5,798 bases of DNA from Phycisphaerales bacterium (GTDB taxonomy: Bacteria; Planctomycetota; Phycisphaerae; Phycisphaerales; UBA1924), in NCBI GenBank assembly GCA_016764015.1, contig JAESSR010000065.1, positions 1 through 5,798 on the forward strand. Reading direction: 5' to 3'. The first letter of the stretch is position 1; the number at the start of each line of letters is the position of its first letter. Shown piece by piece: positions 1-5,798 of the stretch. The notes beneath the pieces are model-generated. The model did not search any database and was not told where the DNA came from. It saw nothing but the letters and a program-made list of their open reading frames with translations. Both the position numbers and the translations under genes were made by a program.

Positions 1-13
1 CGGAGGCTTCGAA

Positions 14-87
14 CGATCCCGCTGAGATTCGAACTCAGAACCTCTGGCTTCGGAGGCCAACGCTCTATCCAGTTGAGCTACGGGACC
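14..87 (-). tRNA. tRNA-Arg (anticodon CCG)
   Basis: Read on the minus strand, the 74 bases fold into a complete cloverleaf. The acceptor stem is GGTCCCG with CGGGATC (one G-T pair) plus discriminator G. The D-arm is GCTC/GAGC. The anticodon stem TTGGC/GCCAG encloses the loop CTCCGAA, and the T-arm is CTGAG-TTCGAAT-CTCAG. The anticodon is CCG (plus-strand 51-53), which reads the arginine codon CGG. No 3' CCA is encoded (TTC follows the discriminator), so CCA must be added after transcription. There is no intron and the variable loop is short (class I). The gene diverges from the transporter gene at 152. I saw no convincing promoter in the 64 bases between them. Confidence 0.96.
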
Positions 88-100
88 AGAATCATGCTTC

Positions 101-151: not shown

Positions 152-1411
152 ATGGCAACGATCACACACAAACACTCTGACTGCCCCACACCCCCTACAC
201 CATTGTGGGCGGTGCTGGTGCTCACATTCTTGGGTTCACTGGGCACCGGGGCCGTCACCAACGGGTTCTCATTTATCGCGACACAGGGGCTTGGGTACGG
301 GCAGAAGATGAACCTGCTCCTCGCGCTCGTCCTCGGCTTCACTTATATCATCGGCGCACTGCTCGCAGGAAAAATCGTCGCCAAGCTCGCACTCAACACA
401 GGACTCCTCACCCCACGCGGGCTCTTGGGCGTCGCCTTGCTCATCATCGCCTTTGCCTGCCAGCTCCCGATCCTCGCCCAAAGCTTTGCGCCTGAACACA
501 CCGAACGCGCCCTCTGGATTTTCATCATCATCTTCTCGCCAGCGACCGGGCTCTTCTGGCCGATCATCGAGAGCTACCTCTCAGGCGGGCGATCCGGCAA
601 GCAACTCCGATCCGCCATAGGCAAGTTCAACATCACCTGGTCGAGCGCATTGGTGCTTTCTTTCTGGCTGATGGCCCCGCTCCTTGAGCACAACTCATTC
701 CTGATCATCGCACTCTTGGGCATCCTTCAACTGCTCATGGGAGGCATGCTCTATTGGTTCCCATCGCACCCGCCGAAACATCTTCCCGAGCACCACGAGC
801 CTCACCCTGATATCTATGTTCCCTTGTTGACCGTGTTCCGAGTAATGCTCATCGCATCGTACATCGTGCTCTCGGCCCTCTCGCCTTTGCTCCCGATCGT
901 CGAAGACAAACTCGGGGTCGATATCCATTGGAAGACACCCCTGGCGAGCGCATGGCTCACCTCGCGCGTATTCCTGTTCCTCTTCTTTGAACGCTGGCAC
1001 GGATGGCATGGAAAATGGTGGACGCCTTGGACCGGGATGGGATTGTTGCTCGTCGGGTTCAGCGCTTGCATGCTCTCGCCGATCGCTCAAAGCGCTGGGC
1101 TGGTCATCCTCACGATCGGACTGCTGATCATGGGGGTCGGCATGGCGATCACCTACTACGGTGCACTCTACTATGCGATGGCGGTCGGTAACGCCGAGGT
1201 CGATGCCAGCGGCAAGCACGAAGCGGTCATCGGGCTTGGCTATACACTCGGTCCGCTTTGTGGGCTCGCTGGGCTTTGGTTCTCTGGTGGCGATCCTGAT
1301 TCTTTCCGCATCTGGGTGATTCTCCTTGTGTCAACAGCCGTCGTCGTATCTGGTTTACTAGGCTTGGGTTTGATTCGCAAAGACCGATCCATTTCGATGC
1401 ACGCTCCCTAA
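152..1411 (+). CDS. MFS transporter, 12 transmembrane helices, substrate unknown
   Basis: This 419-residue integral membrane protein has the size and layout of the major facilitator superfamily. Hydrophobic segments lie at about 18-44, 53-81, 88-109, 118-144, 158-178, 180-202, 222-252, 263-283, 290-316, 317-346, 354-377 and 385-408, forming two six-helix halves. The central cytoplasmic loop (about 203-221) is rich in proline and histidine, with H206, H210, H214, H215 and H218. Conserved-looking polar or glycine positions include WPIIESYLSGG in helix 4 and the adjacent loop, and ITYYGALYYAM in helix 10. Such proteins move small solutes by proton or ion coupling, but nothing in the sequence identifies the substrate. 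ATG 152 is the only reasonable start: the next methionine (53) would remove the first helix. No Shine-Dalgarno sequence is visible, so it may be translated from a leaderless or weak-RBS transcript. It appears monocistronic; the next gene is 231 bases away and has its own ribosome binding site. Confidence 0.9.
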   Translation: MATITHKHSDCPTPPTPLWAVLVLTFLGSLGTGAVTNGFSFIATQGLGYGQKMNLLLALVLGFTYIIGALLAGKIVAKLALNTGLLTPRGLLGVALLIIAFACQLPILAQSFAPEHTERALWIFIIIFSPATGLFWPIIESYLSGGRSGKQLRSAIGKFNITWSSALVLSFWLMAPLLEHNSFLIIALLGILQLLMGGMLYWFPSHPPKHLPEHHEPHPDIYVPLLTVFRVMLIASYIVLSALSPLLPIVEDKLGVDIHWKTPLASAWLTSRVFLFLFFERWHGWHGKWWTPWTGMGLLLVGFSACMLSPIAQSAGLVILTIGLLIMGVGMAITYYGALYYAMAVGNAEVDASGKHEAVIGLGYTLGPLCGLAGLWFSGGDPDSFRIWVILLVSTAVVVSGLLGLGLIRKDRSISMHAP

Positions 1412-1574
1412 ATCTGCCAACCCACCTCACAGATTGGGAAACTTCTTATCGGGTCGTTCGTACAACAAGTGTTATACCGCCTGTGGGAACTACGACGCCC
1501 GATACTCGCCGATGCAATAAACTGATCCGTCGGGATGTTCACCAAGGGGTATACGAACCGCCGAAGAACTAGGC

Positions 1575-1599
1575 GTATAGGTATAGATAGATTCACCGC
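1575..1599 (+). promoter_or_regulatory. leader motif shared with the pdhA leader, copy 1
   Basis: GTATAGGTATAGATA (1575-1589), then GATT, then CACCGC (1594-1599). The dehydrogenase leader carries GTATTGGTATAGATA followed directly by CACCGC (4959-4979). The two 15-mers differ at one base and the six-base tail is identical, apart from a four-base insertion here. This copy ends 43 bases before ATG 1643. TATAGA could be a -10 element, but no -35 is visible at the right distance. Similarity is seen; function is inferred. Confidence 0.4.
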
Positions 1600-1633
1600 T
1601 GACAGGGTTCTCAAACCCACGATGCTCATGATT

Positions 1634-1637
1634 GGAG
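1634..1637 (+). promoter_or_regulatory. Shine-Dalgarno GGAG deciding the protease start
   Basis: GGAG lies five bases before ATG 1643. This favours 1643 over the in-frame ATGs at 1535, 1622 and 1628, and it places a typical signal peptide at the very N-terminus. Confidence 0.7.
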
Positions 1638-1642
1638 TCAAA

Positions 1643-3937
1643 ATGACGAGTTGGACAAAGAAAGCGACCACACTGGGCACTGTTGGGATCATCGGCGCCA
1701 TTGGAATCATTGGTCTGCTGACCACATTCTCAGGCACCGCACTCGCAGCTTCAAACGAGCCCGCCCCGACAGCGACCCAAGTTGCACTCTACACCTCACC
1801 AAACTCGATCTGGGACGCCGCGATCAAAGGCGATTCGGCCGCACTCGACTCATTGCTCACCCCATCCAACTGGGATCAAACGAGCCTCAATGCAAACCTA
1901 CTCGCTTCAATCGAGCTGCTCCAAACAAACATAGACAAACGCGAAGCGACCCGCGAAGAGCAGATCACCGACGCTGACAAGCGCCTGCTTGAGCATCTCG
2001 AAAACTACGATGAAAACCAATCGGGCATCGAGCTCTCCAAAGCCCTCGCCGCATCAGTCGAGTTGCAGATGCTTTTTAACGACGACGACAAGTTCTTCTC
2101 CGATGCCAATGTATCCAATGCCATTCATATCTCGGTCAAGGCTGCGAAGATAGCCGAAGAAACTGGCGACTGGATGATCGCATCGGAACTCTACTACCGA
2201 CTCAACGCCATCCACGATCCCAGCGGCATCTACAAACCAGATGTCAAACGACTCTCACGCCGACTCGCCATGATCCGGATGTACGCCCCAGAACGCCTCT
2301 GGGAAATCCGCAACCAGCGTCGAATCGACGAGGGCATGGACCCGTTGCCGCCATACAACGCCTACGGCGATGACTTCCATGAAAAACTCAAAGGCGTCAA
2401 CTCGGTCACTGTCCGCACAGCAATCCAACGCTCCGCCGATCAGCATGTCGGTCGCAAAACCCGCAAGCACCCCACCGGCGTGAACATGAACGACCTGATC
2501 CTCTCAGGTCTTGATGCGATCGAAACCATGGCGACCACCATCGACCTGGCCGTTGCGTTTGATGGGCTCGAAAAAGAATCCAACCGCAACAAGTTCCTCG
2601 ATGTCATCCATGCCCAGCAAGCAAAGATCCAAGCCAAGGAGCACACCGCTTCAGGATATGATCTCCGCAGGGCACTTGATGCTGTTTTAGTTGCTGGAAA
2701 CGAGCATGTCGGAATCATGGAAGCCGCATTGCTCCATGAGTTCGGCAACGGCGCGATGTCCGCACTCGACGACTACACCGCAATCATCTGGCCAGACGAA
2801 CTCTCACGCTTCCGCAGAAGCACCCAGGGAGAGTTCATCGGCATCGGTGTACAAATCCAGCTTGACGAGTTCCAGAACATCAAAATCGTCACCCCACTCG
2901 AAGGCACACCCGCCCAACGCGCGGGTGTACAGAGCAATGACATCATTAAAAAGATCGATGGAATCACCGCCGTCGGGCTCGGGCTCAACCAAGCCGTCGA
3001 TATCATCACAGGTCCAGCCAACACCAAAGTCAACATCACCGTCGAACGCGAAATCGAAGCCGGCGAAATCATCGAAAAAGAGTTCACTATCATCCGCCAG
3101 AAGATCGATCTTCCATCAGTCAAAGGCTGGTCCAAGACCGGCGCTGGTGATCAAGACTGGGACTACTTCATCGACAAAGACGCCGGGATCGGCTACATCC
3201 GCCTCACCGGGTTTACCAAAGACTCGACCAAAGAGTTTGACCGTGCCGTCAAGGCAATGAAGAAAGAAGGGCTCAACGCACTGATCCTTGATCTCCGCTA
3301 CAACCCCGGCGGGCTACTCGACCAAGCGGTCAACCTCGCATCACGGTTCGTGCCTTCGGGCATGATCGTCAAAACCGTTGACAGCTCGGGTATCACCAAC
3401 TCGATCGACGACGCTCGTCGAGTCTCGGCTCGGACATCCGTCGCCGACATCCCCGTCGTCGTGCTCGTCAACGAAGGAAGTGCGTCTGCATCAGAAATCT
3501 TGTCGGGTGCGATCCAAGCATCGGCACACCAAGGCAAGAGCCAGGCGCTCGTCCTCGGGCATCGTAGCTTTGGCAAAGGATCAGTCCAAAATGTCTACCT
3601 CCTCCCTGGAGGCGCAGCAGCCATGAAGGTGACGACCAACTACTACAAGATCGATGCGCCACGCATGATCCACAAAGTCCCCGGCTCAACCGAATGGGGT
3701 ATCGACCCAGACCTGGTCGTCGATATGCTCCCAAGCCAACAGGCCGAAGCTTTGATGCTCCGTCGGAGTGCAGATGTCTTGCCACTCGACGAGAACGGCG
3801 ACATCATCGTTGATGCCGAGCGCCCAGACCCAAACACCCTCATCACCGAAGGCACTGATCTGCAAGTCCAAACAGCACTCGTGCTGCTCCAATCCCAGAC
3901 CACGGTGGACAACACCAAGACTTCAATGATGGATTGA
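1643..3937 (+). CDS. exported carboxyl-terminal processing protease (PDZ + peptidase S41)
   Basis: This 764-residue serine protease belongs to the CtpA/Prc family, which cleaves exported proteins near their C-termini in the periplasm. Residues 1-35 form a Sec signal peptide: K6-K7, hydrophobic core 11-28, and ALA before the likely cut at 35/36. Residues 36 to about 340 are mostly helical and unassigned, with a TPR-like helix pair near 165-190. The S41 lead-in (ALDDY at 374-378, then FRRST) precedes a PDZ domain (about 396-490) with GIGVQI and the GTPAQRAGVQSNDII substrate-groove region. The catalytic core (about 510-700) has DLRYNPGG (550-557), the nucleophile Ser615 in SASASEI, the general-base Lys645 in FGKGSVQ and Gln649, matching Ser430, Lys455 and Gln459 of E. 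coli Prc. The Ser-Lys distance is 30 residues rather than 25, so a short insertion lies between them. The protein is longer than ordinary CtpA (400-500 residues). It stands alone, and a REP hairpin follows its stop codon by 15 bases. Confidence 0.92.
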   Translation: MTSWTKKATTLGTVGIIGAIGIIGLLTTFSGTALAASNEPAPTATQVALYTSPNSIWDAAIKGDSAALDSLLTPSNWDQTSLNANLLASIELLQTNIDKREATREEQITDADKRLLEHLENYDENQSGIELSKALAASVELQMLFNDDDKFFSDANVSNAIHISVKAAKIAEETGDWMIASELYYRLNAIHDPSGIYKPDVKRLSRRLAMIRMYAPERLWEIRNQRRIDEGMDPLPPYNAYGDDFHEKLKGVNSVTVRTAIQRSADQHVGRKTRKHPTGVNMNDLILSGLDAIETMATTIDLAVAFDGLEKESNRNKFLDVIHAQQAKIQAKEHTASGYDLRRALDAVLVAGNEHVGIMEAALLHEFGNGAMSALDDYTAIIWPDELSRFRRSTQGEFIGIGVQIQLDEFQNIKIVTPLEGTPAQRAGVQSNDIIKKIDGITAVGLGLNQAVDIITGPANTKVNITVEREIEAGEIIEKEFTIIRQKIDLPSVKGWSKTGAGDQDWDYFIDKDAGIGYIRLTGFTKDSTKEFDRAVKAMKKEGLNALILDLRYNPGGLLDQAVNLASRFVPSGMIVKTVDSSGITNSIDDARRVSARTSVADIPVVVLVNEGSASASEILSGAIQASAHQGKSQALVLGHRSFGKGSVQNVYLLPGGAAAMKVTTNYYKIDAPRMIHKVPGSTEWGIDPDLVVDMLPSQQAEALMLRRSADVLPLDENGDIIVDAERPDPNTLITEGTDLQVQTALVLLQSQTTVDNTKTSMMD

Positions 3938-3947
3938 GCAGATTGGC

Positions 3948-3988
3948 GGTGCCGTGGTTAACAAATCTCGAAGAGATTTTTAACTACG
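3948..3988 (+). repeat. REP hairpin A (AAATCTC class)
   Basis: The head GGTGC (3948-3952) is followed by a long hairpin. CGTGGTTAA (3953-3961) pairs with TTAACTACG (3980-3988) through eight Watson-Crick pairs and one G-T. C3962 is a bulge. AAATCTC (3963-3969) pairs with GAGATTT (3973-3979) around the loop GAA. The total is 16 pairs. It starts 11 bases after the protease stop codon and is the best-paired copy of its class. Confidence 0.9.
3963..3981 (+). terminator. likely intrinsic terminator of the protease gene, supplied by REP A
   Basis: The AAATCTC-GAA-GAGATTT hairpin runs into five Ts (3977-3981) shortly after the protease stop codon. The inner stem is AT-rich, but the outer TTAA-containing arm adds stability. 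The shape fits a Rho-independent terminator; activity is inferred. Confidence 0.4.
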
Positions 3989-4016
3989 ATCTTTGGTCCT
4001 ACTCCTAACCCAAGAG

Positions 4017-4054
4017 CGTAGTTAAAAACCCCCGGGTTTATTAACCACGGCACC
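4017..4054 (-). repeat. REP hairpin B (AAACCC class)
   Basis: Read on the minus strand: GGTGCCGTGGTTAA (4054-4041), a bulged T (4040), AAACCC, a two-base loop, GGGTTT (4031-4026), and TTAACTACG (4025-4017). The ends and the bulge position match copy A, but the inner stem sequence differs completely. It points toward A across a 28-base spacer. The ten bases CCACGGCACC recur at 4059-4068, 14 bases on, as an orphan head. Confidence 0.9.
4024..4039 (-). terminator. likely intrinsic terminator of the transposase gene, supplied by REP B
   Basis: On the minus strand, the AAACCC/GGGTTT stem ends in five Ts (4028-4024), 37 bases past the transposase stop. Together with REP A it would make the gap between the convergent protease and transposase genes a two-way terminator. 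This is inferred from shape. Confidence 0.4.
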
Positions 4055-4058
4055 AAGA

Positions 4059-4068
4059 CCACGGCACC
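4059..4068 (-). repeat. orphan REP head (GGTGCCGTGG on the minus strand)
   Basis: CCACGGCACC is an exact copy of the ten-base end of REP B, spaced 14 bases from it and with no hairpin attached. It lies 7 bases past the transposase stop codon. It may be a remnant of another REP or a second recognition site. Confidence 0.55.
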
Positions 4069-4075
4069 GGGAGTA

Positions 4076-4588
4076 TTACTCTCTCCAAATCTTGATGTGA
4101 CCTGTTTCGCCCGCATAATCACGAGCTGAAGACCAAATCCATTCGGTTGGTTGTTCAACCAACTCTCTTCGGACAGGGTTCCAATGGATGTATTCGATCT
4201 TTTCGTTGAGTTCATCCTGATCTCTCATGTTTCGATCGTATCCGCCTCCTCTTTGCCAGAAATGAGCAACGCCACGAGGATCAGTGAGTGATTGAATGAT
4301 GTTTGATTGATTTGCCTTCCATCCCGCCAGCATCGATCGAGCGAATCCTTGCTTGATGGATCTGAGTGACGACCCAATCTGGCCGTCGAGCGGACACAGG
4401 ATAAGATGAACATGCTCAGGCATGATGACCCAAGCGACAATTCTGAGTTGATGTTTTTCGCGTTGAAACTCGATCTGCTCTACGAATGCATTTCTTGTCT
4501 TTGGATCATTTAAAAGTGGTAATCTGTGGTAGCAAGAGAATGTGACAAACCGTGCTTGCCCCATGATATTGTACCGTTTCGTTGGCAT
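4076..4588 (-). CDS. REP-associated tyrosine transposase (RAYT, Y1_Tnp/IS200-like)
   Basis: This 170-residue single-domain HUH endonuclease, numbered from ATG 4588, cuts single-stranded REP DNA through a 5'-phosphotyrosine link in known family members. The family fold is evident in order: ARFVTFSCYHRLPLL (12-26), the metal-binding HUH motif in MPEHVHLIL (H59, H61), WQRGGGYDRN with the likely catalytic Tyr117, and the RAYT C-terminal signature YIHWNPVRREL then WIWSSARDY. All catalytic residues are present and the frame is intact, so the enzyme may be active. A TTG at 4594 would add two residues. The later ATG at 4564 would start after KRYNI, which resembles the usual family N-terminus. No Shine-Dalgarno sequence is obvious, so expression may be low. 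There is no partner gene. REP repeats lie on both sides. Base composition looks more AT-rich than in the neighbours, suggesting horizontal entry. Confidence 0.93.
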   Translation of the reverse strand: MPTKRYNIMGQARFVTFSCYHRLPLLNDPKTRNAFVEQIEFQREKHQLRIVAWVIMPEHVHLILCPLDGQIGSSLRSIKQGFARSMLAGWKANQSNIIQSLTDPRGVAHFWQRGGGYDRNMRDQDELNEKIEYIHWNPVRRELVEQPTEWIWSSARDYAGETGHIKIWRE

Positions 4589-4609
4589 ATCCAATCAAGA
4601 GTACACACT

Positions 4610-4619
4610 CAACGGCACA
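4610..4619 (-). repeat. degenerate REP head upstream of the transposase gene
   Basis: CAACGGCACA differs at two of ten bases from the REP end CCACGGCACC and has the same orientation as the orphan at 4059-4068. ACGGCAC (4612-4618) also forms a 7-bp inverted repeat with GTGCCGT (4626-4632) in the head of REP C. The transposase gene is therefore framed by two hairpin-less heads inside the true REPs. Confidence 0.35.
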
Positions 4620-4624
4620 CCCAT

Positions 4625-4665
4625 GGTGCCGTGGTTAACAAATCTCGAATAGATTTTTAACTACG
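4625..4665 (+). repeat. REP hairpin C (AAATCTC class)
   Basis: GGTGCCGTGGTTAA (4625-4638), bulged C4639, AAATCTC, loop GAA, TAGATTT (4650-4656) and TTAACTACG (4657-4665). It is identical to copy A over the 41-base unit except for one G-to-T change beside the loop, which opens one pair. TTAACTACGCTCT (4657-4669) is the exact reverse complement of AGAGCGTAGTTAA in copy E (4751-4763), so the conserved unit extends past the hairpin foot. Confidence 0.9.
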
Positions 4666-4682
4666 CTCTTCGCCCTAGATGC

Positions 4683-4718
4683 TGTGGTTAACAAATCTCA
4701 GAGAGATTGTTAACTACG
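4683..4718 (+). repeat. REP hairpin D (diverged AAATCTC class)
   Basis: TGTGGTTAA (4683-4691), C4692, AAATCTC (4693-4699), loop AGA, GAGATTG (4703-4709) and TTAACTACG (4710-4718). The head is eroded: GATGC replaces GGTGC. The change of the last stem T to G4709 lets the formerly bulged C4692 pair, and A4693 becomes the bulge instead. Stem length and a single bulge are therefore kept. Confidence 0.85.
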
Positions 4719-4754
4719 AACGGTAATTGTGGTGATTCATGGAAGAGTACAGAG

Positions 4755-4793
4755 CGTAGTTAAAAACCCTCCGGGTTTATTAACCACGGCACC
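4755..4793 (-). repeat. REP hairpin E (AAACCC class)
   Basis: On the minus strand: GGTGCCGTGGTTAA (4793-4780), bulged T (4779), AAACCC (4778-4773), a three-base loop, GGGTTT (4769-4764) and TTAACTACG (4763-4755). It matches copy B except for one extra loop base. It closes the right-hand cluster facing C and D, and marks the right edge of the island. Confidence 0.9.
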
Positions 4794-4802
4794 GGGGATC
4801 AT

Positions 4803-4868
4803 AGAATGCGTTTTTTCGTGATAAAATGGGCATTCTGTGTTCCAAAATCACCCAATCCGCCACGAAAA
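4803..4868 (+). other. interlocking inverted repeats upstream of the pdhA promoter
   Basis: AGAATGC (4803-4809) is complementary to GCATTCT (4830-4836). TTTTCGTG (4813-4820), inside that loop, is complementary to CACGAAAA (4861-4868). If transcribed, the two stems would form an H-type pseudoknot. The stretch lies upstream of the predicted promoter at 4894, so it may instead be DNA-level symmetry or part of an unrecognised small RNA. No gene is seen here. Confidence 0.3.
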
Positions 4869-4893
4869 CACTGCTGATTCTTCGCTGCACCAG

Positions 4894-4923
4894 TTGGCAT
4901 GATCTAGCCAGACTTCCTATACT
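4894..4923 (+). promoter_or_regulatory. sigma-70-type promoter for the pyruvate dehydrogenase gene
   Basis: TTGGCA (4894-4899; 5 of 6 to TTGACA) and TATACT (4918-4923; 5 of 6 to TATAAT) are separated by 18 bases. The transcript would start near 4930 and have a leader of about 112 bases before ATG 5042. This is the best promoter match I found in the window. Confidence 0.65.
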
Positions 4924-4934
4924 CTGTGATAAGT

Positions 4935-4958
4935 CAGCCGAGCACCGATGTTCGGCTG
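4935..4958 (+). promoter_or_regulatory. 10-bp stem-loop at the start of the pdhA leader
   Basis: CAGCCGAGCA (4935-4944) pairs with TGTTCGGCTG (4949-4958) around the loop CCGA, with one G-T pair. It starts about five bases after the predicted transcription start. There is no T-run, so it is not a terminator. It may be a 5' mRNA-stabilising hairpin or, as DNA, an operator overlapping the initial transcribed region. Confidence 0.5.
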
Positions 4959-4979
4959 GTATTGGTATAGATACACCGC
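4959..4979 (+). promoter_or_regulatory. leader motif shared with the protease leader, copy 2
   Basis: GTATTGGTATAGATA (4959-4973) is followed directly by CACCGC (4974-4979). It matches the element at 1575-1599 with one substitution and a four-base gap. It abuts the leader stem-loop and ends 62 bases before ATG 5042. TGG-TATAGA resembles an extended -10, so a second promoter is possible, but no -35 fits. Confidence 0.4.
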
Positions 4980-5029
4980 CCAATACGCTTAAGAATGCGT
5001 GTATGTACGAGTGGTGAACCATCAAGATC

Positions 5030-5034
5030 AAGGA
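5030..5034 (+). promoter_or_regulatory. Shine-Dalgarno AAGGA for pdhA
   Basis: AAGGA lies seven bases before ATG 5042 and selects it over the in-frame ATG at 5081. Confidence 0.7.
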
Positions 5035-5041
5035 CGACGCC

Positions 5042-5798
5042 ATGACCCAGGCAACCGCCGCCTCCAACGAGCAATCAACCATGAACACCGCGAAAGCAGA
5101 TTCGCCAGCAGCCGGCCTTGCACCAACAGCCAAGACCGCCGCCGAGCTTCCAAAAGAAGTACTCGTCAAATGGCTCTACGACATGCAACTCATCCGTGAG
5201 TTTGAAAACCGCACCATGCAGGCCTACCAACAGGCCAAAATCGGCGGATTCTGTCATATATACACCGGCCAAGAAGCCGTAGCCGTCGGCACCATCGGAT
5301 GTACCAACCACGATGACCCCGTCATCACCGCCTACCGCGATCATGGGCACGCACTCGCAAGAGGCATGACTCCAAACTCATGCATGGCTGAGATGTTTGG
5401 CAAGACCACTGGCTGCGCAAAGGGCAAAGGCGGGTCGATGCATATGTTCGATCGTCCAAACTGGCTCTTCGGCGGCCACGGCATCGTCTCCGCACAAACA
5501 CCAATGGGTGCAGGATTCGCATTCTCCGAAAAATACCAACTCGAAGTCATGGGCATCGGCAAAAAGAAAGTGACGCTCTGCTACATGGGCGACGGCGCAC
5601 TCGACCAAGGCTGCTTCCACGAAGCACAAAACCTCGCATCGCTCTGGGATCTCCCAGTCATCTACATCCTCGAAAACAACGGCTACTCCATGGGCACCGC
5701 CATCCACCGCCACACCGCAAACGCCGACAACCTCATCGATCGCGCCAAAGGCTACGGCATCAAAGCCGCCAAGATCGACGGGCTCGACATCATGAACA
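5042..5798 (+). CDS. pdhA: pyruvate dehydrogenase-type E1 component, alpha subunit (3' end cut by window)
   Basis: The first 252 residues of a thiamine-diphosphate-dependent 2-oxo acid dehydrogenase E1 alpha subunit, running off the right edge. E1 alpha2-beta2 decarboxylates pyruvate and passes the acetyl group to lipoyl-E2, feeding acetyl-CoA into the TCA cycle. Family landmarks in order: IREFENRTMQAYQQAKIGGF (51-70), YTGQEAVAVG (74-83), YRDHGHALARG (98-108), GKGGSMHMF (128-136), FGGHGIVSAQTPMGAG (143-158), and the ThDP/Mg motif GDGALDQG (183-190) ending in ENNGYSMGT (211-219). YRDHGHALARG and GKGGSMHMF favour pyruvate over branched-chain substrates, though acetoin dehydrogenase is a close alternative. 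Residues 1-35 are an Ala/Thr/Ser-rich extension of low complexity. A full subunit would be about 350-390 residues, so roughly 100-140 are missing. The beta subunit and E2 would be expected to the right. The leader has its own promoter and stem-loop. Confidence 0.9.
   Translation, partial: MTQATAASNEQSTMNTAKADSPAAGLAPTAKTAAELPKEVLVKWLYDMQLIREFENRTMQAYQQAKIGGFCHIYTGQEAVAVGTIGCTNHDDPVITAYRDHGHALARGMTPNSCMAEMFGKTTGCAKGKGGSMHMFDRPNWLFGGHGIVSAQTPMGAGFAFSEKYQLEVMGIGKKKVTLCYMGDGALDQGCFHEAQNLASLWDLPVIYILENNGYSMGTAIHRHTANADNLIDRAKGYGIKAAKIDGLDIMN

Follow-up and report, generated by a model that had tools for sequence, protein, structure and literature searches.

RAYTs are HUH/Y1 single-strand DNA nucleases related to the IS200/IS605 transposases, and REPs are classed by their tag. 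According to the passages of the literature cited here, most REPs sort into GTAG and CGTC tags (PMC3733652), and a GT[AG]G tag is found in five subclasses and CnGA in class 3 (PMC6006769). TnpAREP recognizes tag and hairpin jointly, the tag helps to select the cut, and GTAG goes with CT; a tag change shifted the cut in the Marinomonas system, but not in two others (PMC8266576). Roles of the RayT loop residues have also been described (PMC6006769 and PMC8266576). The preference of some REPs for heterodimers is reported to have no obvious explanation, and protection from SbcCD-type enzymes has been suggested (PMC3733652). In Rhodopirellula baltica, many RAYT-like genes are described as flanked by repeats (PMC3733652).

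The window analyzed here is the whole 5,798-nucleotide stretch of the Phycisphaerales contig JAESSR010000065.1. Between positions 3948 and 4793 it has five hairpin repeats of about 40 nt around one RAYT gene (Table 1). We conclude that this island is very probably a REPtron, in which the RAYT is accompanied by the non-autonomous, GTGC-tagged hairpin REPs that it would act on, and that these REPs form heterodimeric REPIN/BIME-like units of about 105 bp.

Table 1. Features of the window, numbered from its first nucleotide
Feature	Position	Strand	Description
tRNA-Arg(CCG)	13-88	-	opens the window
MFS transporter	152-1411		
S41 C-terminal processing protease	1535-3937		
Intergenic gap, S41 protease to PDH E1 alpha	3938-5041		1104 bp; contains the REP/RAYT island
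REP copy A	3948-3988	+	inner stem AAATCTC/GAGATTT; GGTGC tag followed by hairpin CGTGGTTAA...TTAACTACG
REP copy B	4017-4054	-	inner stem AAACCC/GGGTTT; partner of A
Sixth REP head, truncated	4058-4068	-	ACCACGGCACC; minus strand reads GGTGCCGTGGT
RAYT gene	4076-4594	-	172 aa from TTG; HUH at EHVH; loop WQRGGGYDRN
REP copy C	4625-4665	+	AAATCTC class; without a tag-outward partner
REP copy D	4678-4718	+	AAATCTC class; eroded tag GATGCT
REP copy E	4755-4793	-	AAACCC class; partner of D
PDH E1 alpha	5042-5797		open at window end

Each copy starts with an unpaired 5' GGTGC that is followed directly by a hairpin with C as its first stem base. Because CGTGGTTAA pairs with TTAACTACG, each copy is one long hairpin. 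The head and foot that the initial annotation saw in all the repeats are indeed common to them, but they pair as arms of a single stem and are not separate motifs. The shared 5' tag GTGC is a feature absent from that annotation. Its two inner-stem classes were confirmed by coordinates and folding, with A, C, and D pointing right and B and E pointing left, and both clusters contain the inverted pair of one copy per class that it described. These pairs, A-B and D-E, have their tags outward, measure 107 bp (3948 to 4054) and 116 bp (4678 to 4793), and enclose spacers of 30 and 38 nt, counting one stem-base letter per side. Folding with DNA parameters gave z scores of -5.1 for A, -2.1 for B, -3.9 for C, -5.4 for D, and -3.7 for E, and of -9.7 and -6.3 for A-B and D-E. 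Out of 200 shuffles, 7 folded as well as B and 1 as well as E, and none did so for A, C, D, or either pair. A four-way junction of A-B appears with DNA parameters. We dropped it as functional evidence, because RNA parameters fold A-B as a single long hairpin. The truncated head lies 3 bp past copy B in the same orientation, and a partial event may be recorded there.

The presence of a RAYT gene in the island, as initially annotated, is borne out by the NCBIfam model NF047646, which scores the protein at 109.7 bits (cut-off, 80). Alignment favors a start at the ATG two codons in (4588) and places the catalytic tyrosine at Y135. The predicted structure has a pLDDT of 92. Escherichia coli RayT with its REP hairpin (4er8) is the top PDB match both by sequence and by fold (TM, 0.64/0.67). 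The predicted protein has the HUH and single-tyrosine fold near 4er8 that marks RAYT/TnpAREP. In the loop alignment, E. coli WQPR-FWEHAIR lies opposite WQRGGGYDRNMR, so that the window RAYT is one residue longer in the GTAG-reading loop. Of the E. coli loop residues, E100 is replaced by D and H101 by R, and R104 is retained. GGGYD or a close variant occurs in most of the loci where a script located the WQ; this prevalence is not independent, because WQ[RA]GGGYD was one of the three patterns that seeded the locus search. The contrasting loop WQRRCYDHN is found at L049, L063, and L064, of which two are labeled GTGG and one has no tag. Three loci are too few, and we therefore draw no inference on loop versus tag from them.

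The host is Phycisphaerales-like by its S41 protease, RAYT matches, and gene order, in agreement with the planctomycete origin suggested at the outset. The top S41 matches (86 to 88% identity) are in genomes G403, G001, and G292. G001 is a MAG (isolate NORP141, the source of locus L001) whose S41 protein is 88% identical to that of the window. Other close RAYT matches (P0003 and P0034) carry Phycisphaerales names. RAYT homologues were present in 39 of 61 genomes, and the best RAYT identities in G403, G001, and G292 were 48, 58, and 56%, on contigs other than those of the S41 gene. In 8 of the 12 S41 loci of relatives, both S41 and PDH E1 are present, and the gap between them is 255 to 585 bp, versus 1104 bp in the window. 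The REP/RAYT island is missing from this gap in these 8 relatives sharing the gene order, and none of the 12 S41 loci had a RAYT match at 1e-5. The S41 gene of relatives is followed by a terminator of the type GGGATGGCGTTTTTT, of which the window, by eye, retains just the right end. Therefore, the island seems to be located at the S41 terminator. In two close relatives (L136 and L137), the S41-PDH E1 gap carries another GC-rich inverted-repeat insert, of the CCCCTCC...GGAGGGG type, so this gap may be an insertion hot spot.

REPs flanking the RAYT gene were seen in the window, and dispersal of the same REP was seen only in the relative G001. There, 37 exact heads GGTGCCRTGGTTA are spread across 19 contigs, and a reversed-pattern control gave 1. 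A head-independent search with the core found 21 copies, comprising 19 with GGTGCC, 1 with GGTGGC, and 1 reversed hairpin. The REP midpoints fell outside ORFs of at least 100 aa in 28 of 38 cases and inside them in 10, and such ORFs, by crude calls, span 84.5% of those loci. Pairing held in 98.6% of stem cells across 35 copies (19 distinct rows). Double-change stem cells numbered 25, versus a shuffled mean of 8.0, and 0 of 500 shuffles reached 25. The tens of dispersed copies that the initial annotation foresaw, mostly outside long ORFs and with unlike partners in their pairs, were thus found in this one relative. Among the 101 genomes around and including G001, the head pattern occurs in 8; G336 has 7 matches, and the remaining six have 1 or 2 each, inside the range of the reversed control (at most 3 per genome). 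None of the 397 genomes in the class to which G001 belongs contained the exact window head. The sole match on a viral contig (L117) was isolated, had neither a foot nor a second copy, and was rejected as chance.

G001 holds two RAYTs, 58 and 47% identical to that of the window, and their palindromes differ. The complete chromosome PNC22 has 9 RAYT matches, 6 of them above the cut-off. At five of its RAYT loci (L212, L214, L217, L219, and L220), a GTGC or GTGG tag precedes a palindrome particular to that locus, and by identical criteria the four others have no hairpin or a single one. In one PNC22 REP family, only 4 of 11 copies lie away from the RAYT array. At L214, sixteen tagged hairpins lie within 3.45 kb around one RAYT, and each strand has one class.

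Because the window offers just two pairs, the pairing rule was tested elsewhere. In G001 we found 13 distinct tag-outward pairs of 102 to 106 bp, and all 13 unite two unlike repeats. As in REPINs and BIMEs, the pairs of the window and of G001 thus consist of two inverted REPs at fixed spacing with tags outward. Pairing of two classes by inner stem alone, as initially proposed, describes 7 of the 13 pairs (ATCC/ATCTC) and fails for 6, namely 5 ATCTC/ATCTC pairs and 1 with a diverged partner. However, the stem base differs (GTG versus ATG) in all five ATCTC/ATCTC pairs, and therefore every G001 pair consists of one ATCTC/GTG REP and another REP. Random matching of the 26 pair members would give this with a chance of 13!/25!!, or about 0.0008 (computed post hoc). 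Class does not fix orientation across the G001 genome, because the ATCTC member lies on the left in some pairs but on the right elsewhere. The strict opposite orientation of the two classes holds within the window but is local, because pair orientation flips between sites on the G001 chromosome. The G001 spacers are near-constant in length and nearly unrelated in sequence. For 10 pairs out of 13, the middles of the spacers had a mean similarity of 0.367 versus 0.341 when shuffled, and 5 of 200 shuffles were as high; these middles are close to unrelated, though perhaps not entirely so.

Unlike pairs also recur beyond G001. Among 108 distinct RAYT loci, 29 contain 52 tag-outward pairs with a median identity of 0.76. 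Two of the 29 loci (L150 and L068) have a pair with at least 97% identity, and no pair reached 97% in the other 27, 3 of which (L042, L067, and L176) hold a pair at 91 to 96%. Same-strand hairpins within a locus were identical in 99 of 257 comparisons, which include duplicate loci and tandem arrays and are not independent. In many pairs, the lower stem is common to the partners and the upper part differs, as in the window. Nine loci have at least two pairs. Class was tied to strand in five of them (L006, L023, L027, L055, and L173), the pairs were unlike but flipped in two (L007 and L048), and they were alike in two. The RAYT at L173 is flanked by seven heterodimers with different stems, seemingly with GTGC on one arm type and GTGG on the other. 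The flanks at L027 have palindromes of about 57 nt with constant ends and a variable middle, in five heterotypic pairs.

The GTGC tag recurs around related RAYT genes. We compared 6-mers within 400 bp on either side of 80 RAYT genes with 1038 control windows from these loci, without regard to stems. GTGCCA occurred at least three times in 42 of the 80 loci (1.3 expected), followed by TGCCAC (35 loci; 1.2 expected) and GGTGCC (35 loci; 3.5 expected). Among all 5-mers, GTGCC was the one whose last base opened a stem in the most loci, 30 of 81. Such a stem was found at 85 of 484 GTGCC occurrences, against an overall rate of 0.9%. Neither the 6-mer nor the 5-mer test presupposes a tag. With any first stem base accepted, GTGC was the commonest of the 256 tetramers with at least two stems right behind, in 36 of 80 loci versus 6 of 240 distal windows sampled from 655. 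The corresponding counts were 14/80 and 5/240 for GTGG, 2/80 and 0/240 for CGTC, and 0/80 and 2/240 for GTAG. When only stems starting with C were counted, GTGC was found in 48 of 80 loci versus 34 of 655 distal windows and GTGG in 23 of 80 versus 36 of 655. These C-first tallies are unfair to GTAG and are superseded for it by the any-base test. As a positive control, the stem finder failed on E. coli rayT, where GTAG REPs with bulged stems do occur, giving one GTAGG match with GTAG outside the top eight tetramers. The low GTAG counts may therefore partly reflect missed bulged REPs, because the finder requires near-perfect stems; the 6-mer comparison is unaffected by this limit.

By C-first labels, the 111 RAYT loci (three of them duplicates) comprise 61 GTGC, 17 GTGG, 10 mixed, and 23 without a tag, and at least two GTGG hairpins were present in 27 of the 111. 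Thus, a GTRG-type tag, GTGG, does occur in part of the RAYT clade. A quick RAYT tree, many of whose branches are weak, requires 13 changes of the fourth tag base, and we therefore excluded C versus G at this position as a clade marker. Because this base flips so often, a fair name is a GTGS tag, mostly GTGC. The stems behind GTGC vary from genome to genome. Outside Planctomycetota, GTGC- or GTGG-tagged hairpins lie beside RAYTs in Fimbriimonadia/Fimbriimonadaceae (L069 and L080).

We infer that these repeats are the substrate of the window RAYT, that the GTGC tag may serve as its guide, and that a pair would require unlike arms. On single-stranded DNA, such as a lagging-strand template, the RAYT would bind the REP that has its tag 5' on that strand, read the tag as a guide, and nick beside the hairpin via Y135. 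The unit would be excised or copied and then joined elsewhere, mainly between genes. A simple guide model for GTGC, drawn by analogy, would predict a GC or GA cleavage dinucleotide. The flanks of the hairpins showed no fixed, tag-specific GC or GA; there is a weak pyrimidine-rich stretch behind the hairpins, and CT is among the top dinucleotides. Because the hairpins adjoin no fixed GC or GA, the simplest guide model finds no support. Guide use of GTGC is plausible by analogy with the described systems.

Three other explanations were weighed. The repeats could be ordinary "double foot" REPs of the GTAG superfamily, in which the stem base CGTGG...CTACG is the guide and GGTGC merely a conserved neighbor. 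The stem base GTGG...CTAC of the window does agree with the subclass 2.4 double foot, with GT[AG]G 5' and C[TC]AC 3' (PMC6006769, in the passage cited). However, members of that superfamily have an unpaired GTAG or GTRG directly before the hairpin, where the window has GTGC. The head-independent G001 set keeps a GTGC or GTGG tag in 20 of 21 copies, and its stem base is CATGG rather than CGTGG in 4 of 21. Among the 19 distinct rows, this stem-base pair is GC in 12, AT in 6, and GT in 1. Related loci also put CATGC, CACTG, CCTCC, or CCGCAG stem bases behind the same tag. We consider the double-foot explanation unlikely.

It is quite improbable that a small insertion sequence of the IS200/IS605 kind accounts for the island, with the REPs as terminal inverted repeats and the gene and its ends mobile as one unit, even though the entire island is absent from this site in the 8 relatives and two PNC22 RAYTs (L219 and L220) have a single hairpin per side in inverted order. 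Elements of that kind are marked by near-identical copies of the gene within a genome, often together with tnpB. The different palindromes of the two G001 RAYTs and the dispersed REPs without a gene argue against it, as do the weak PF01797 score (24.6 bits) beside the high score of the RAYT model and the absence of TnpB among the four window proteins scanned. Retention of the repeats for transcription termination or mRNA stability at the S41 and RAYT genes would accord with the start of copy A 10 bp past the S41 stop codon and with the apparent replacement of the left arm of the relatives' S41 terminator by the island. It leaves the tag, the pairing rule, and the dispersal unexplained, and a simple terminator scan gave no site at the REPs. 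This role is very improbable as the explanation of the repeats. We favor a REPtron, although several results weigh against it, namely the RAYT loci with no tag or with GTGG, the many changes of the fourth tag base, the lack of a fixed dinucleotide beside the hairpins, the few copies away from the PNC22 array, and the blindness of the stem finder to bulged stems.

The window island is more general than initially annotated, being a REPtron with a noncanonical GTGC tag and heterodimeric units. Beyond this locus, we can offer a tentative proposal that is possible but short of probable. GTGC, with its GTGG relatives, may be a third REP tag superfamily, which would belong to a planctomycete-centered RAYT clade with a residue gained in the loop that reads the guide (GGGYDRN). 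Its unit may be an obligate heterodimer, a miniature single-strand transposon with two unlike hairpins as its distinct left and right ends, and its cleavage dinucleotide may be shifted from CT. The mostly-GTGC RAYT clade is a natural experiment on guide-DNA reading by single-strand nucleases, because the loop change and the tag change are swappable in vitro. The heterodimer question is also testable, because unlike pairs recur (27/29 loci and 13/13 pairs in G001) over many unrelated palindromes.

In its listed titles and the openings of its abstracts, the open-licence literature on RAYT/REPIN, REPtron, BIME orientation, RAYTs and REPs of Planctomycetes, and Rhodopirellula palindromes shows no GTGC-tagged REP family, which agrees with the initial view that this family may be undescribed. 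The main text of PMC2817692 has no planctomycete and no GGTGCC. GTGG falls within the published GT[AG]G, and GTGC lies outside it; other REP families have previously been shown to include heterodimers and spacers that vary. The comparisons that follow are with the passages cited. TIRtrons/TIRYTs likewise have RAYT-like genes between non-GTAG inverted repeats, some of them self-complementary, but their shared motif, compared by text description, is GGGGWSAS (PMC3733652). Class 3 TnpAY1 also occurs in Planctomycetes with atypical REP-like hairpins; it has YV[VI]xEQ, W[TA], and a CnGA foot, whereas the window has YIHWNP, WQ, and GTGC (PMC6006769). Like Pseudomonas REPINs, the units are inverted doublets of fixed length, mainly intergenic, with poorly conserved spacers, and the G001 spacers, near-constant in length, resemble those of SBW25 REPINs (PMC3116915). 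However, the Pseudomonas REP tag is GTRG (PMC2817692), and the dimers of P. putida and P. entomophila are mostly homodimers, unlike the window pairs with their differing arms (PMC3733652). HH-type REP heterodimers share the unlike arms, and some have spacers similar in length but different, but their tags are GTAG or CGTC (PMC3733652). The E. coli RayT/REP-BIME system (4er8) shares the RAYT fold, the HUH motif, the catalytic tyrosine, and the 5'-tagged hairpin, and its gene is flanked by oppositely oriented pairs of two REP types, Y and Z (PMC6006769). It differs from the window in its tag, GTAG instead of GTGC, and in a loop that is one residue shorter.
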